A stretch of 27,556 nt of DNA from a virus, in IMG/VR virus record IMGVR_UViG_3300008954_000227, positions 1-27,556 of that record; one strand, given 5' to 3'. Below are positions 522 through 6,860 of the stretch, piece after piece; the stretch's first letter is position 1; every line of letters begins with the position of its first letter. The position numbers and the translations under genes are program-made. Below the pieces are notes generated by a model that was given only the letters and a program-made list of their open reading frames with translations, had not been told where the DNA came from and made no database searches.

Positions 522-2136
522 ATTCTCAGGGGTATCTCCTATGACACCCCCGAGATACTTAGGGGATAACGCGGCGCAGACAGCGCTCAACTGTCCTGTA
601 TGGTTAGGCTCCCTACAATCTATTAGAGGCGCCTCTGAAATAACGCCTGCCCAACTTACCAAAACAGGGTCGATGAAATCTATCTATCGCTTTGGTAAAA
701 ACGAAACAGATGAAAAGAATTACTGGTTCCACTGGACTACTGACGTAGATGTAGTACAGGGTTTCATAGCCGGGGACACTACAGAACGTACGTACTACAC
801 TGGCGATGGCGTTCCAAAGGTGACTGATAGCTCTTTAGCTCTTGCAGGAGCGGGTACAAATTACCCTGAAACATCATACACCTTAGGAGTGCCTAAACCA
901 ACAGGGGCAGGATTCTCTACGGCTAAGACGGGAACCCCTAGCCCTAATACAGTTTCTGAAACTCGAGTGTACACATTTACATATGTTAACTCCTGGGATG
1001 AGGAGTCAGCTCCATACTCAGCTACTAGTATGTCGGCTTCTACTGAGGATGTTTACCCAGGAGAAAGCGTAGTGGTTACTATGCCAACTGCTCCAACGGG
1101 TAACTACAACGTAACTAAAAAACGAATTTATCGTTCTGCTTCTGGCTCTGCTAATACATCGTTCTTCTTCGTGGCTGAGGTACCTGTAGCGACAACGACG
1201 TACACTGACTCTATTTCAGGGGACTCTCTGAACGAAGAGATTCCTTCTTTAACTTGGGAACATCCGGTATCAACTCTACAAGGACTTGTAGGTTTACCTA
1301 ACGGTGTTATGGCGGCTTTCTCAGGTAACGATATTTATTTCTCAGAACCGTACCGACCGTTCGCGTGGCCTACGCAGTACATGCAGACCGTTGGTTATCC
1401 TGTAGTTGGGCTAGCAGTGGTGGATACTACCGTCGTAGTTCTAACGAAAGGTAGACCGTACTTCATCCAAGGCTCACACCCAGACAGTTCAGTTATGGTG
1501 GAAGCCGATGTTAACCAGGCGTGTATTTCCAAACGAAGTATCGTAAGTATTAACAACTACGTGCTCTACGCAGCCCCTGACGGTCTAGTAGGGTTGTCCC
1601 CTGGAGGGTCGTCGGTAGTGACGCAGAGTATGTTCGACAAGTACTCTTGGCAGTCTATGAACCCTAGCGGCCTAGTAGGCGCTAGATATGAGAACCAGTA
1701 CGTAGGGTTCCTAAACACTACAACAGGTAACGGCGGGTTCGTATATGACATGAACGCTAAAACGTGGAACTTCCACAACATTTATGCGACGGGCGGTTAT
1801 AACGACCTGAAGAATGACTCGCTGTACATCATTAAAGGCGATGAGCTGTGGAAGTGGGACACCGGTTCGGCACTTGCTTACACTTGGAAATCAAAGAAAT
1901 TTACGTACCCGGAGCCGAAGTCTTTTTCGTGCTACCGCGTACAAGCAGAAGCGTACCCTATCACTATGAAGATATGGAGAGACGGCACTAAGATAGTTGA
2001 CCTATCGCTTACCAACGACAGTTTACAACGAATACCTTCAGGGTTAGGTAATGACTGGGAGTTCCAAATAGATGGGAGTACTGAAGTTTACAATGTGCAG
2101 ATTGCACAGTCACCTATGGAACTTAACCAAGGATGA
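499..2136 (+). CDS. Tail nozzle/stabilisation-like virion protein
   Basis: This 545-residue protein begins MAVITVNKFSGVSP at ATG 499, with GAGG a few bases upstream; a GTG two codons earlier is less likely. After an N-terminal region comes a beta-rich FN3-like stretch (about residues 153-240, including YTFTYVNSWDEESAP). The C-terminal half looks like a beta-propeller: short strands with repeated patterns such as FSGNDIYFSEPYRPFAWP, VVVLTKGRPYFIQG and YVLYAAPDGLVGLSPGG. This layout is what I know from podovirus tail-tube or nozzle proteins (the P22 gp10/T7 gp12 role), which close the bottom of the short tail and hold fibres. It leads a run of tail genes and its stop overlaps the next start (ATGA at 2133). 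The exact family is uncertain; a virion structural role is well supported by context. Confidence 0.7.
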   Translation: MAVITVNKFSGVSPMTPPRYLGDNAAQTALNCPVWLGSLQSIRGASEITPAQLTKTGSMKSIYRFGKNETDEKNYWFHWTTDVDVVQGFIAGDTTERTYYTGDGVPKVTDSSLALAGAGTNYPETSYTLGVPKPTGAGFSTAKTGTPSPNTVSETRVYTFTYVNSWDEESAPYSATSMSASTEDVYPGESVVVTMPTAPTGNYNVTKKRIYRSASGSANTSFFFVAEVPVATTTYTDSISGDSLNEEIPSLTWEHPVSTLQGLVGLPNGVMAAFSGNDIYFSEPYRPFAWPTQYMQTVGYPVVGLAVVDTTVVVLTKGRPYFIQGSHPDSSVMVEADVNQACISKRSIVSINNYVLYAAPDGLVGLSPGGSSVVTQSMFDKYSWQSMNPSGLVGARYENQYVGFLNTTTGNGGFVYDMNAKTWNFHNIYATGGYNDLKNDSLYIIKGDELWKWDTGSALAYTWKSKKFTYPEPKSFSCYRVQAEAYPITMKIWRDGTKIVDLSLTNDSLQRIPSGLGNDWEFQIDGSTEVYNVQIAQSPMELNQG

Positions 2137-3203
2137 AGAGTAAACTACCCGCTCTAGTATCGTCGATAGCACCGGACCTACGACGCTTCCTCGACCGAAT
2201 TAGAGAAACCTTTGAGTCTCCTGATGGTATGGTTACCAAAACAGACCTTATCAAAACGGGGGTGTTCGAGAAGAACACAGCTGGCGACTTATCGTTTTTA
2301 GAGAACGGTAACACCGATAGTTGTACATCCCCGCCTGCCCCTGTCAACCTAGATGCCTCTGGCTCCATGGCGTCTATCATTCTGTCTTGGGACGGCGGTG
2401 AGTATAGCGCTTGTTATTCATACACTGAGATATGGAGAGCTGTAGCTAACGACTTAGGTACAGCGGTACTAATAGGTACTACTACTTCAGAACTATTTGC
2501 AGATGCAGTTGGTTCCGATGCTTCCTACTACTACTGGGTTAGATTCGTTAGTGTCTTAGATGACAAAGGTCCGTATAACCAAACTGCAGGTACGCTAGGA
2601 GAAACTGCTCCCGATTTGGAGTACGTGTTTTCACAGCTAACTTCGGCGTACAGTACTACTTCTGATGCTCCGTTTTTCCAATTAGACACTGCGACAACTA
2701 TCGGAGGTGTGAGTATCCCAGCTGGTACATACATGAAGCAGGCGATGATTTATAACGGTGTTATTACTAACGCTAAGATAGGAGCCGCAGCAGTAGATAG
2801 CGCAAAGATTGCTAACGCAGCTATTACTACAGCTAAGATTGCAGACGCTAATATTACTACAGCCAAAGTAGCCAACGCTGCTATTGACACAGCCCAAATT
2901 GCGAACGCCGCGATTACTAACATAAAGATTAAAGACGCAGATATTACTACCGCTAAGATAGCAGACGCTGCAATTACTAACGCCAAGATAGGTGATGTCA
3001 TTCAGTCTAGTACTTACACTGCGGGTTCTGCTGGTTGGAAGATAGACAAGACTGGTGCGATGGAGATGAACAATGCTACGTTCAGAGGAACTATAGATGT
3101 TAAGTCTGCTACGACTGGAGCTCGCTTAGAAATTACAAACTCAGCGATAAAGGTGTATGACTCAAGCGGTACTGTTCGAGTTAAGTTAGGAAACCTATCA
3201 TGA
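2133..3203 (+). CDS. Tail fibre/host-specificity protein with FN3-like domain
   Basis: The 356-residue product has an N-terminal region (about 1-60), a FN3-like domain (about 67-150, with LSWDGG and the YYYWVRFVS strand), a linker, and eight near-perfect 10-residue repeats of the ITTAKIADA type (residues 211-290). The C-terminal part contains GWKIDKTGAMEMNNATFRGTI and a VYDSSGTVRVKLG ending. FN3 plus repeats plus the GWKIDKTG.../VRVKLG end resembles the C-terminal, receptor-facing portion of gpJ-like and podovirus central-fibre proteins. It is coupled to the nozzle gene upstream and to the small MSYG protein downstream through ATGA overlaps. The receptor is unknown. Confidence is good for a tail-tip or fibre role and lower for a precise family. 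Confidence 0.7.
   Translation: MKSKLPALVSSIAPDLRRFLDRIRETFESPDGMVTKTDLIKTGVFEKNTAGDLSFLENGNTDSCTSPPAPVNLDASGSMASIILSWDGGEYSACYSYTEIWRAVANDLGTAVLIGTTTSELFADAVGSDASYYYWVRFVSVLDDKGPYNQTAGTLGETAPDLEYVFSQLTSAYSTTSDAPFFQLDTATTIGGVSIPAGTYMKQAMIYNGVITNAKIGAAAVDSAKIANAAITTAKIADANITTAKVANAAIDTAQIANAAITNIKIKDADITTAKIADAAITNAKIGDVIQSSTYTAGSAGWKIDKTGAMEMNNATFRGTIDVKSATTGARLEITNSAIKVYDSSGTVRVKLGNLS
2763..3002 (+). repeat. Eight tandem 30-base units encoding 10-residue repeats
   Basis: Eight in-frame units encode variants of I-T-[TN]-A-K-I-[AG]-[DN]-A-[AND] (ITNAKIGAAA, VDSAKIANAA, ITTAKIADAN, ITTAKVANAA, IDTAQIANAA, ITNIKIKDAD, ITTAKIADAA, ITNAKIGDVI). The hydrophobic residues recur every 4-6 positions, as in a repetitive fibre shaft. 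Base-level divergence between units indicates old duplication with selection on the protein. Confidence 0.85.
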
Positions 3204-3496
3204 GTTATGGGCTTAATTTATACAACAGTGATGGTTCTTTAGGTTTTTCAACAGCCGATGTAACCTGGATGCAGATTGACCAGTTTACTGTAGCGGCTAA
3301 CGCGTCGGTGTCCAACTCTTACCCAGAGGTTGCTGGTATGACAGTTATCACACAAGTTCAGATGGTTAATGACCCTCCAGAATCGCAAGAAGCTTACGCG
3401 CCTAACGTTACGATAGGAGCTACATCTGTATCTGTAGCGCCGTACTCAGGTAAAACTTCAGAAGAAACAGTCATCATGGTACTAGCTCAGGATTAA
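3200..3496 (+). CDS. Small tail-associated protein, MSYG type
   Basis: The 98-residue product starts MSYGLNLYNSDGSLGFSTAD. This N-terminal pattern (a short beta-strand, a DG turn and a second strand) is a module I recognise from small phage tail-tip and fibre-associated proteins. The rest is beta-rich with no Cys and no catalytic motif. Its ATG overlaps the stop of the fibre gene (ATGA), and the next gene begins with a related MSYG block, so the two probably arose by duplication and may occupy neighbouring sites on the tail. Function beyond virion structure cannot be assigned. Confidence 0.6.
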   Translation: MSYGLNLYNSDGSLGFSTADVTWMQIDQFTVAANASVSNSYPEVAGMTVITQVQMVNDPPESQEAYAPNVTIGATSVSVAPYSGKTSEETVIMVLAQD

Positions 3497-3499
3497 ATT

Positions 3500-4450
3500 A
3501 TGTCTTATGGTTTTTCTGCTATTAATGATAGCGGTCAAGTTATTATTTCTTCAGAGATGGAGAACCTGCATTACGTGGGGAAAGCCACGCTTACAGGCAA
3601 CGATGGCGGAAACTACGGAGACTTTCCATCATACAGCGGTTCTAACGACACCCTAGACGGCAGAGTAATTTTCACTTATACTTTTTCATCGTCTGCTACC
3701 CCTCTAGTATTCATTAAGCCCTCAGACTATAGTCGATGGCATGGTATGTTGACACAAAGTAAGAGCGGTAGCACTTGGACGTATGACGTTATTGTCAGCG
3801 GTACTTCCACTAGTAGCGCTCCAGTTTTGTACTGTTTCGTTAACGCTGCTAATGTACCTGCTTCTTCGGATACACATGGAGCTGTTATATACAAAGCCGA
3901 CGGCACAACTAAAACCTTTGACTCAAGACTTAACCCTTTAGCGGTTAGTGGTGGCGGGTCTATTTCACCCCCTACAGATCCTACAGATGGTAGTGGTTTA
4001 CCTACTACTACATCGGGGCATCCTTGGAATTACAATTCTAATGACCACGATTTTAGAAGCACCACTAGGTACAACTCTTCAGCGATATCAGGTACTTATA
4101 GTAATTTAATGTTTTCAGCACCCTCTTTAGCTCAAGCAGTTTATAAGAGACAAGCAGAAGGGTATAAATGTTCTGATAAACCTTGGCCTGAGTCTGGATG
4201 TCAAGAGCACTGGTCAACAGCTATGTGGTGGGTAATGTACCGCAACACTTTCAGAATAAGAAGTGGGTACTTTGATGCTGGCTGGACTAGTTATGTTGCT
4301 GGATACGCATTTAGTTCTACTTATGAATCAGGTGGTTGGTTTGGAGGAGGCGGCGGCGGTTACTCTACTGGGAGTATGCCGTATACTGCTAAAACTATTA
4401 ATCTAACAAGTAACGCATTTATGATTACGGATGCTACGAGGTACGGATAA
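3500..4450 (+). CDS. Tail fibre-like protein with glycine-rich C-terminal domain
   Basis: The 316-residue protein begins MSYGFSAINDSGQVIISSEM, a relative of the preceding small protein's N-terminus. AGGA at 3489-3492 lies seven bases before the start. The first half is beta-rich (about residues 1-150), followed by a Ser/Gly/Pro/Thr-rich linker (SGGGSISPPTDPTDGSG). A distinct C-terminal domain (about 175-316) is rich in Trp, Tyr and Gly, including CSDKPWPESGCQEHW and GGWFGGGGGGY. A conserved attachment module joined by a linker to an exposed C-terminal domain is the usual plan of a receptor-binding or decoration protein. Two Cys flank the Pro/Trp segment and could form a disulphide. The stop overlaps the next start by one base. 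The base composition becomes AT-rich towards its end. Confidence 0.6.
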   Translation: MSYGFSAINDSGQVIISSEMENLHYVGKATLTGNDGGNYGDFPSYSGSNDTLDGRVIFTYTFSSSATPLVFIKPSDYSRWHGMLTQSKSGSTWTYDVIVSGTSTSSAPVLYCFVNAANVPASSDTHGAVIYKADGTTKTFDSRLNPLAVSGGGSISPPTDPTDGSGLPTTTSGHPWNYNSNDHDFRSTTRYNSSAISGTYSNLMFSAPSLAQAVYKRQAEGYKCSDKPWPESGCQEHWSTAMWWVMYRNTFRIRSGYFDAGWTSYVAGYAFSSTYESGGWFGGGGGGYSTGSMPYTAKTINLTSNAFMITDATRYG

Positions 4451-5565
4451 TGGCTGGAGAAATTGCATATATTAATAATGGAGAGGTATATAAGCAACAT
4501 ACCTTTTTCTCTGGCCCTCTAGTCGGAGATGATTTCAACTACATTTCTAATAGAACAGACGACCCTATTGCTCCATTTGCTCATATTAAGGGCGATAAGG
4601 AAAAGAGATATACATCTACTAGAGAATTTAGAGAATGGCTTTTAAATGAAAGCACAGGGACTTCTTTAGAAGGATATGACCTTTGCCCTGACGTAAATAT
4701 GTGGTTAGGTGTTGGTAAGTTCACAGATGATACTCCTGAAATTGATTTATATTTCAAAGTAGATGATTCTACAATGTTGCAACAAGTTTCAGATTACTAC
4801 GGTTTACCTTACCCTCTTGATGATGCTATCACTGATATGCTGGATAACAATTTAAGAACTCTCTCAATGTATCAGAATGGTTCTGAGTACCTAGCTTTAG
4901 GTGTTGTTAAGATAATAGATGGGGCTCCTTCTTTACTTAAGTTTCATTGTTATTATAAAGAGATAGGTGACTGGTTGGCTTTTGAAAAAGGTAGGGTTTT
5001 ATGTAACAAAGAAGTAGTAGAGGAAGGGGGTAGATACGCCCTAATGTCTACTAAACCTATACATCATATGAGTATGTCAGGTGATAATATAGTAACTGAG
5101 TTTGTTGAGAATAAGACAGACCCTATTACTCAATGGGAAGCACGTAGAACTAACTTAGCCACTAATGAAACTAAAATAGAATATTACGAATCTTCTAACG
5201 CTTTGAGACTTGGTGTTGGTAATTTAGACACTGGTAGTAACTATGAGGAGTACGACAGGGCTCCAAACGTTAATATGTGGTTAGGCCGTAGTTGGATTGA
5301 GAATGAACAAGAAGAACTATACTTCTTAGTTGAAAGTAGAGAGATGCTAGATGAAGTAGCAACCTACTATGGGCTACCTGTACCCTATGATGATGAATTA
5401 AAAGCAGTACTGGATAATGATTTACAATCTATTCGTTTCAAGTCTTATGATTTGAATAACGAAGGTGAAGGTAATTTTGTTGCAGTAGTTGTAGCTGGGA
5501 TTGTCTTTGAAGATGATACTGCTACTATGCTTAAGCTGTATGAAACTACAAGGTGGAATGAGTAA
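4450..5565 (+). CDS. Internally duplicated protein of unknown function
   Basis: This 371-residue acidic protein contains two copies of one module. Copy A spans about residues 34-174 and copy B about 221-370. Both include N[RK]TD, then [DN]VNMWLG, then LYF.V, then ML..V..YYGLP.P.DD.....LDN.L, then a closing strand pair. About 45 divergent residues link the copies. I do not recognise the module; the regular strand/helix pattern and YYGLP-PxDD signature suggest a compact alpha/beta fold. There is no membrane segment or signal peptide. It sits between fibre genes and internal virion protein genes, and its DNA is visibly more AT-rich than its neighbours (19 G/C in 5041-5100 against 38 in 1561-1620), so it may be an acquired accessory (moron-like) gene. 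Roles as a decoration protein, fibre chaperone or host-interaction factor are all possible. Confidence 0.65.
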   Translation: MAGEIAYINNGEVYKQHTFFSGPLVGDDFNYISNRTDDPIAPFAHIKGDKEKRYTSTREFREWLLNESTGTSLEGYDLCPDVNMWLGVGKFTDDTPEIDLYFKVDDSTMLQQVSDYYGLPYPLDDAITDMLDNNLRTLSMYQNGSEYLALGVVKIIDGAPSLLKFHCYYKEIGDWLAFEKGRVLCNKEVVEEGGRYALMSTKPIHHMSMSGDNIVTEFVENKTDPITQWEARRTNLATNETKIEYYESSNALRLGVGNLDTGSNYEEYDRAPNVNMWLGRSWIENEQEELYFLVESREMLDEVATYYGLPVPYDDELKAVLDNDLQSIRFKSYDLNNEGEGNFVAVVVAGIVFEDDTATMLKLYETTRWNE

Positions 5566-5632
5566 TTACTTGCACACATATAATAACTATGATATATAAT
5601 AAAGGCGTGCTAATAAGTAAACATAGGTACAC
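5566..5632 (+). promoter_or_regulatory. AT-rich gap with two TATAAT boxes
   Basis: This 67-base gap follows the AT-rich duplicated gene. It contains TATAAT at 5579-5584 and again at 5595-5600, the latter within a longer run, GATATATAATAAAGG. A weak TTGCAC at 5570-5575 is 19 bases before the second box. This is a plausible place for transcription to restart ahead of the internal virion genes. No terminator hairpin is visible. Confidence 0.35.
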
Positions 5633-6061
5633 ATGACTGAGTCTCGTTTAGTATTTGATGATAAGGAACGGATTGGGGAGTGGGTAGCTAAAGAGGTAGA
5701 ACAGCGCTCCACGTGGGGATCTTTCTACGCTATGGGCGCTGAAGTAGACGGTCAAATTACGAGCGGTGTTGTGTTCAACAACTTTAATGAATGTAATGCT
5801 ACTTGTCATATCGCTGTCAGCAAACCCAATAAACTGTTTTTAGAACTGCTAGACCACGCTGCGTTGTACGCGTTTAAGTCTTGTGGGTTAAAACGGCTTA
5901 CGGGGTTAGTCGAAGCTGACAACTCCAAAGCATTGAAATTAGATAAACATATCGGCTTCGAAGAAGAAGGCGTTATGAAAAAAGCAGGCTCCGAAGGACA
6001 AGACATGATTGTCCTGGTATTATGGCCTGAAAACTACCGCAGAGGAAGAAAGAATGGGTAA
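5633..6061 (+). CDS. GNAT-like internal virion protein (T7 gp13-like position)
   Basis: The 142-residue product shows the GNAT acyltransferase layout. An N-terminal helix (ERIGEWVAKEVEQ) is followed by a strand pair (GSFYAMGAEVDGQITSGVVF), a strand-helix core (CHIAVSKPNKLFLELLDHAALYAFKSCG) and the C-terminal signature KRLTGLVEADNSKALKLDKH with IGFEEEGVMKK. Phages of the T7 supergroup carry GNAT-related proteins at this place, just before the internal virion proteins, where they act in core assembly rather than as clear enzymes. The usual acetyl-CoA pyrophosphate loop (Q/RxxGxG/A) is not evident, so catalysis is doubtful. The start has only a weak AGG upstream. The end overlaps the next gene by eight bases. 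Confidence 0.75.
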   Translation: MTESRLVFDDKERIGEWVAKEVEQRSTWGSFYAMGAEVDGQITSGVVFNNFNECNATCHIAVSKPNKLFLELLDHAALYAFKSCGLKRLTGLVEADNSKALKLDKHIGFEEEGVMKKAGSEGQDMIVLVLWPENYRRGRKNG

Positions 6062-6860
6062 AAAAAGTTCACCGGCTCCGGATTATACGCCGCTAGCAAA
6101 CGCTAGTAAGGAAGCAGCAGAGATTATGAGAGGTCTTGGGGAGAAGCAACTTGCTTTCTCTGAGAAAATGTACAACGAGAATTCACCATTGTTGAAAGAC
6201 ATCGCTACCAAACAGGGTGCTATGATGGACCAACAGATGGCACAAGGTAAAGACTACTACGATTACCTTAAGGATACATACCGACCTGTGGAAAAAGGTA
6301 TCGTTGCCGACGCTTTAAGTTTTGATACCGATGCGTACCGTAACTCATTAGCTACTAAAGCCGCCGCTGATTCAGGCGTCGCATTCAACAGAACACGACA
6401 AGCCAATGAGAGAGCTATGGCCTCTATGGGGGTTAATCCAAACTCGGCTAGGTTCCAAGGAATTGGTTCTCAGGCTGCACTGATGCAGTCCGCTAACAGA
6501 GCAGGTGCTATGACAGGTGCAAGAGAACGCGCACAACAAACAGGCTACGCTAGAAAACTCGATGCTGCTGGGTTAGGTAGAAACCTTTCTGGTGCGTCAA
6601 CTGCTGCATACGGAAGTGCTGCTAACGCTGGTAACTCAGCAGGAGCCAACTACCAATCTGCGGGGCTTAACCATCTAACTGGTATGGGGCAAGGTGCTAG
6701 TACTATAGGCCAAGGGCAGAGCATGAACATAACAGGGCTTAGCAATGTATTAAACAATCAAACCAAGTACGCTATTGAAGGCGGTGGAAATGCTGCTGGA
6801 GACTTCGGTGCTATAGCAGGTGGCTTAACTAAAATGTACACCGGCGGATTGTTCGGTTAA
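6054..6860 (+). CDS. Internal virion protein, T7 gp14-like
   Basis: Start ATG 6054 (MGKKSSPAPDYTPLANASKE) is chosen because AGAGGAAGAA lies just upstream and because it tiles against the GNAT gene; a start 15 codons earlier would overlap more. The 268-residue protein is Ala/Gly/Gln/Asn-rich, with a helical N-terminal half (KEAAEIMRGLGEKQLAFSEK) and a low-complexity C-terminal half rich in GA/GN steps. Such composition plus the position directly before two larger internal proteins matches the smallest podovirus ejection protein (gp14 in T7), which forms the outer-membrane pore portion of the ejection channel. Sequence-level homology to T7 itself is not claimed; the family is diverse. Confidence 0.7.
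   Translation: MGKKSSPAPDYTPLANASKEAAEIMRGLGEKQLAFSEKMYNENSPLLKDIATKQGAMMDQQMAQGKDYYDYLKDTYRPVEKGIVADALSFDTDAYRNSLATKAAADSGVAFNRTRQANERAMASMGVNPNSARFQGIGSQAALMQSANRAGAMTGARERAQQTGYARKLDAAGLGRNLSGASTAAYGSAANAGNSAGANYQSAGLNHLTGMGQGASTIGQGQSMNITGLSNVLNNQTKYAIEGGGNAAGDFGAIAGGLTKMYTGGLFG

Follow-up and report, generated by a model that had tools for sequence, protein, structure and literature searches.

The P371 locus and its duplicated module

The DNA analysed here, referred to as the window, is a 27,556-base IMG/VR virus contig, the late genes of which resemble those of Bcep22-like phages, and Bcep22-like phages such as JC1 are described as short-tailed (PMC9144972). The product of 493-2136 matches PHROG 511 (E 8.2e-150) and, at less than 60% identity in every case, 164 phage records; it is followed by these features:

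2133..3203, + strand: tail fibre gene (Phage_Tail_Tip PF09327, E 1.6e-15; PHROG 31 'central tail fiber J', E 1.3e-16)
2997..5620 (approximate edges), + strand: block replaced relative to the sister phage L002 (blastn/tblastx of the window against L002)
3200..3496, + strand: p98, the small first gene of a trio (PHROG 557, E 6.2e-05)
3500..4450, + strand: f316, proposed tip protein (PHROGs 4062, 3370 and 6061, in which function is not assigned)
4450..5565, + strand: P371, a single 371-aa ORF of two modules and the proposed f316 partner
4450..5004, + strand: P371 N-terminal module (aa 1-185)
5005..5562, + strand: P371 C-terminal module (aa 186-371)
5633..6061, + strand: GNAT acetyltransferase gene, outside the putative cassette (PHROG 4470, E 1.3e-28; 35 GNAT loci)

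The tail fibre has similarity to the C-terminus of lambda J; its N-terminal part is common with L002, and its C-terminal end lies inside the swapped block. The f316 stop and P371 start share one base (TAATG), and GAGG lies immediately ahead of the start. On the other side, the GNAT gene marks the conserved right edge of a variable slot and has relatives in 33 phage records, including gp63 of Burkholderia phage JC1. The gene after it is a relative of the virion structural protein PHROG 8003 and matches JC1 gp64, a protein detected in JC1 virions (PMC9144972), and beyond it, with one gene in between, a 2922-aa protein with a PLxRFG (tail-700) domain is encoded. A sigma-70-like promoter match (10/12) lies between P371 and GNAT at 5571-5600, in a scanned region where 13 such matches compare with a shuffle mean of 16.1, and so are not in excess.

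Using BLASTP with composition correction and the low-complexity filter off, we aligned the two halves of P371 (residues 1-185 and 186-371) over 164 columns with 33% identity (E 3e-21). Likewise, the internal repeat gave a Smith-Waterman score of 185, compared with a mean of 31.9 (sd 5.2, maximum 64) over 2000 shuffles of the C-terminal half, which bears out the original prediction that this gene carries a duplicated module. The repeated motifs are DVNMWLG at residues 81-87 and NVNMWLG at 273-279, YYGLPYPLDD at 116-125 and YYGLPVPYDD at 306-315, with LYFKV/LYFLV and LDNNL/LDNDL also seen.

The gene had further been described as richer in AT than the tail genes ahead of it, and a composition scan agrees with its AT-richness: among 1116-base stretches of the window, the GC minimum (0.357, starting at 4527) overlaps P371. 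No 1116-base stretch outside the gene falls below 0.424 (window mean 0.450), and P371 has the lowest GC (0.363) and GC3 (0.272) of the 19 ORFs tabulated. Codon usage in P371 is unremarkable (z 0.3); the strongest codon-usage outlier of 17 genes tested is the GNAT gene (z -3.6). GC3 steps down from 0.396 in the fibre gene to 0.378 in p98, 0.345 in f316 and 0.272 in P371, and returns to 0.444 in GNAT, a stepwise drop that is in line with a cassette derived from an AT-richer source.

Relatives of P371 and their linkage to f316

Searches with P371 using tblastn found no relative in named phages (E up to 1) or in plasmids, and searches of viral contigs and genome contigs with P371 or a profile of its module were also empty. 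Motif scans returned none, and then three stretches in viral contigs and five in genome contigs; the best profile match among these eight (E 0.0097) lay over the selecting motif itself and was judged to be chance. A profile search with f316 identified 20 loci, one of which, L059, encodes a 371-aa P371 relative (E 1.3e-103), and an alignment of the window and L059 pair then led to three loci, comprising L080, which is the L059 contig, and the new loci L079 and L081. As the relatives appeared only via f316 and then the pair alignment, the early empty searches reflect the limits of pattern scanning. On sequence grounds P371 is not an ORFan, with relatives in three uncultivated viruses (L059, L079 and L081) at 36-50% identity to the window protein; in the pair-alignment search L081 stood at 34% and L079 at 50%, the latter ending at the contig end, and all four proteins retain both modules. 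No P371 relative turned up among 398 genomes from the same phylum as a Pseudomonas genome, a set which had no positive control.

P371, its halves and its cores matched no Pfam families, DUF4376 included, and neither did the L079 and L081 relatives, while PF16778 and chaperone family profiles gave no match to P371. The family had no significant match in PHROGs or among PDB sequences, and nor did the window protein, searched alone, in NCBIfam and PADLOC. Several weak matches were judged to be chance: PHROG matches at E 0.017 and at E 0.041 (the second being the PHROG 87 metallo-protease, in which no stretch passed alone), PDB lactate dehydrogenases against the two-module profile (E 0.43 and 0.73), yeast chain 7p3x (E 0.081) and primase-polymerase chains (E 0.61) against the four-member profile, and two unrelated Pfam families against the L059 relative (E 0.034, Mad3/BUB1, and 0.074). 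The absence of a significant match for P371, its halves or its cores upholds the view that the module belongs to no described family. Relative to the profile libraries searched, P371 and its relatives are a new protein family by sequence, in a known kind of locus.

Twelve positions are invariant in all eight modules of the four proteins (D38, Y54, D77, P80, W85, L100, F102, L110, Y116, Y117, L119 and P122, with C-copy counterparts D224 to P312). The motifs named in the original prediction are thereby accepted in part as a signature: all are present and YY.L..P and L.F are conserved across modules, but neither the DD of PxDD nor NMWLG in full is constant, and a catalytic role for the DD motif was rejected because it is not conserved. 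P371 may conceivably be an enzyme, such as an enzymatic tailspike or depolymerase, given K52 and R61, which are kept in seven of the eight modules, and the PHROG metallo-protease match at E 0.041. The modules are nonetheless likely to be non-catalytic, judging from the 12 invariant residues, which comprise two Asp and otherwise Tyr, Trp, Phe, Leu or Pro, with no His, Cys, Lys, Arg or Glu.

In a tree of the eight modules, cut at aa 190, the N- and C-terminal modules separate, each at 100/100, which indicates that duplication predates the spread of the cassette. By this phylogeny both modules are ancient, and they are retained together in all four proteins. P371 and its relatives are acidic (pI 4.4-5.0), and a 19-residue hydropathy scan gave maxima of 1.07-1.57 across the four proteins, all near residues 340-353; a clear membrane segment is absent from P371, where the top value of 1.57 is at residue 343 and not N-terminal. 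Structure prediction for P371 reached a pLDDT of 36.0 from the single sequence and 42.6 from the two modules. Foldseek with these models found no match at E <= 0.001, and its lists were left unused because the pLDDT was too low. A prenyltransferase-like alpha-beta repeat fold, considered from the strand and helix order of these poor models, was dropped with no profile or PDB match to it.

The gene order p98-f316-P371 is found in all four loci, and in each the P371 start overlaps the f316 stop, by TAATG in three and by a 4-base ATGA-type overlap in L081; GAGG stands shortly before the P371 start in the window, L059 and L079. Since L079 and L081 were located through P371, their f316 genes are not a product of the search choice. 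The trio follows a J or J-C-terminal-like fibre gene in the window, L059 and L081, and a portal gene precedes it in L079. L059 carries lambda-type I and J homologues upstream (PHROG 31, E 1.7e-227) as well as a fibre gene, L079 has terminase and portal genes directly ahead of the trio, and L081 has a fibre gene (PHROG 496, E 1e-62), with only the fibre end and the trio, in 13 kb, matching any of nine window genes tested. Comparison of the window with L002, L059, L079 and L081 shows that the trio has been swapped between phages of different backbone, and from this pattern p98-f316-P371 looks like a mobile tail-tip cassette. In L079 (4534-9075) the trio adjoins the portal gene with no fibre gene between, which is an odd place for tail-tip genes.

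Identity to the window in L059, L079 and L081 was 0.62, 0.56 and 0.29 for p98, 0.63, 0.59 and 0.46 for f316, and 0.47, 0.50 and 0.36 for P371, so that in each of these comparisons P371 has changed more rapidly than f316. The P371 gene is AT-richer than its own locus in three of the four loci, with GC of 0.317 against 0.378 in L059 and 0.296 against 0.361 in L079, and shows no clear difference in L081 (0.471 against 0.479). P371 and f316 have equal GC3 in L059 (0.202 and 0.206) and L079 (0.191 and 0.190), and the AT excess in these two loci therefore reflects amino-acid content (low GC2). AT-richness alone would be weak evidence, being nearly absent in L081.

A variable slot and alternative putative partners of f316

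Window and L002 DNA share 73% identity over 500-2960 and 69% over 5647-6763, with ~2.6 kb of the window (2997-5620) corresponding to ~1 kb of unrelated DNA in L002. Different genes occupy the place ahead of GNAT in other Bcep22-like loci. Among Bcep22-like loci with other fibres, eight slot proteins, picked by eye for their look-alike appearance, were tested for Phage_tail_APC (PF16778) and all eight matched above the cut-off; these are 121-149 aa in length with one PF16778 stretch each, and a ninth slot protein matches tail-fibre-assembly PHROGs. There was no P371 match among the ORFs of the 35 GNAT loci, several of which end before or within the slot, and no P371 relative in six sister records. 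In the sister phage L006 the slot (2955-6518) holds five main ORFs, none matching p98, f316 or P371, showing that the site is highly variable. The original prediction had placed an accessory gene at a site of acquisition; the site is indeed swapped, but P371 is not a lone gene and instead forms the third member of a co-inherited trio.

In L027, L030, L031 and L041 we also observed genes of 459-586 aa that are f316-like by eye, of which only that of L030 matched f316 (tblastn). These precede a distinct family of 115-121-aa ORFs, two of which were tested and had no significant PHROGs match.

The 20 loci collected with the f316 profile, among which some contigs are identical (L068/L070 and L075/L076), differ in what follows f316. 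Sixteen have a pair of genes termed S+B, one has P371 (L059), one has a 299-aa ORF (L078, the same contig as L034) and two are cut off (L065 and L077), and none shows both P371 and S+B. The pair consists of an S of ~65-75 aa, often starting MIKPF, then a B of 204-225 aa, with S read from ORF lists and B identified by a profile built from 13 sequences, which match by construction. S+B is more widespread than P371 among these loci, occurring in L060 (1065-1882), L039, L042, L061-L064 and L066-L076. Five B and two S proteins had no significant Pfam or PHROGs match, and one B protein had no match in named phages. A single match among 369 genomes, L085, has p98-f316 and then 76-aa and 168-aa ORFs of other kinds, indicating that a P371-like partner is not always present behind f316. 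In L075 (5001-6016, identical in L076) the f316 relative is divided between overlapping ORFs, one of 191 aa and one of 147 aa, reflecting a split gene or a frameshift.

In a tree of 19 f316 proteins, built without duplicate or cut rows and without the split L075/L076 gene, the four P371-partnered proteins group in one clade (98/96) and the 13 S+B-partnered proteins in another (100/100). In this phylogeny the type of partner, P371 or S+B, follows the f316 lineage, although lineage-matched partners could also reflect shared descent alone. The overlap of the genes, their linkage, the swapping of the trio and its lineage-matched partners together suggest that P371 is a physical partner of f316 in the putative tail-tip cassette.

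Proposed role of P371 at the tail tip

Phage host range is largely set by small swappable tail-tip loci. Exchangeable loci immediately behind gpJ have been tied to receptor specificity in small siphophages, as described for the BASEL phages, with RTP gp44/gp45 as an example (PMC8594841). These are swappable blocks directly behind a J-type protein, as is the present locus except in L079; their arrangement varies by allele, and they are common to distantly related phages (PMC8594841). However, RTP gp44 belongs to PHROG 1265, lies on the opposite strand and is accompanied by a 76-aa lipoprotein, p98 matches PHROG 1265 only at E 0.017, and no P371 counterpart was recognised at gp44/gp45. We infer f316 to be a receptor-binding tip, attached to the J-like fibre, from its context and from a resemblance to RTP gp44 that is not significant (f316 profile E 0.033, with gp44 first among the RTP ORFs tested).

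A further parallel is seen in Alteromonas phages of different families, which share a fibre-plus-chaperone module (PMC10579305). In A5 and V22 (gp8/gp9 and gp26/gp27) a fibre and a directly downstream partner recur across families, and the chaperone of this module may cap the tip (PMC10579305, PMC7289586). V22 gp27 differs in being 21.8 kDa with relatives that contain DUF4376 (PMC7289586), while P371 has 371 aa, two modules and no Pfam match. Likewise, the Phage_tail_APC chaperones of the sister loci occupy the same slot directly behind fibre genes, but the eight tested have 121-149 aa, and P371 is without a PF16778 match. Like tail assembly chaperones, the P371 gene also stands directly behind a tip gene, as f316 is taken to be, in all four loci. 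On this evidence we judge the chances to be about even that P371, as the last gene of a mobile three-gene tail-tip cassette for host recognition, is a dedicated partner of f316, most likely as an assembly chaperone or cap. P371 would be made beside f316 by coupled translation, would bind it through its two modules and might stay on the tip.

The second-ranked reading, which we consider possible but distinctly less probable, is that P371 is itself a virion tip adhesin at the fibre end, with its modules binding the receptor and f316 acting as an adaptor. The faster divergence of P371 than f316 in every comparison with the window would also suit a host-facing adhesin, as would its tandem domain, and accessory proteins are described as staying fibre-bound in Mu Tfa, S16 and other T2-like tips (PMC7289586); the site is moreover typical for host-interaction genes, an argument made in the original prediction. 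Set against this, the gene behind f316 varies while f316 stays, partly by construction since the loci were collected with f316, which makes f316 the better adhesin candidate, and the sister loci hold assembly chaperones in the slot of P371.

It is improbable that P371 is instead a cytoplasmic moron for host takeover or counter-defence, placed, as the neighbouring GNAT gene is, where the tail operon ends. The gene is AT-rich, and the GNAT type found in JC1 has been termed a moron, with gp63 absent from the detected virion proteins listed (PMC9144972). A free-floating moron would, however, not be expected to show linkage and overlap with f316 in four of four loci with different neighbours, or a partner type that tracks f316 lineage; P371 also has no PADLOC match, which shows no more than that it is not one of the known defence proteins. 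Least probable is a role in superinfection exclusion as the companion of the tip adhesin, as for the lipoproteins of siphophage receptor loci, since although exclusion genes are known to neighbour receptor-binding genes in the loci behind gpJ (PMC8594841) and RTP gp45 is annotated as a lipoprotein, P371 has no clear membrane segment by hydropathy scan and is about five times longer than gp45.

The three-gene version occurs with different neighbouring genes, and probably with different tail types. We propose, tentatively and as a doubtful further reading, that p98, f316 and P371 form a self-contained recognition head for both short (Bcep22-like) and long J-type tails, in which P371 and S+B would be interchangeable specificity or folding subunits, maybe with a distant common ancestor, and P371 would found a new family of tandem-module tail-tip proteins. 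If borne out, the three-gene locus would offer a marker by which receptor loci can be recognised in uncultivated viruses, and would allow the idea that a single recognition head serves different tails to be tested.

We found no significant homology of P371 to the B, S and T profiles or to the 299-aa ORF of L034. S+B occupies the place of P371, and one short segment of B, of which YFKGDPASVENHFNL is an example, is similar to LYFKVDDSTMLQQVSDYYGLP, a similarity that is not significant by hhalign (P 0.028, probability 1.8%). A distant relationship between P371 and B is at most suggested: in a shuffle control the P371-B comparison beat 150 of 150 column shuffles with the module profile and 145 of 150 with the full-length profile.
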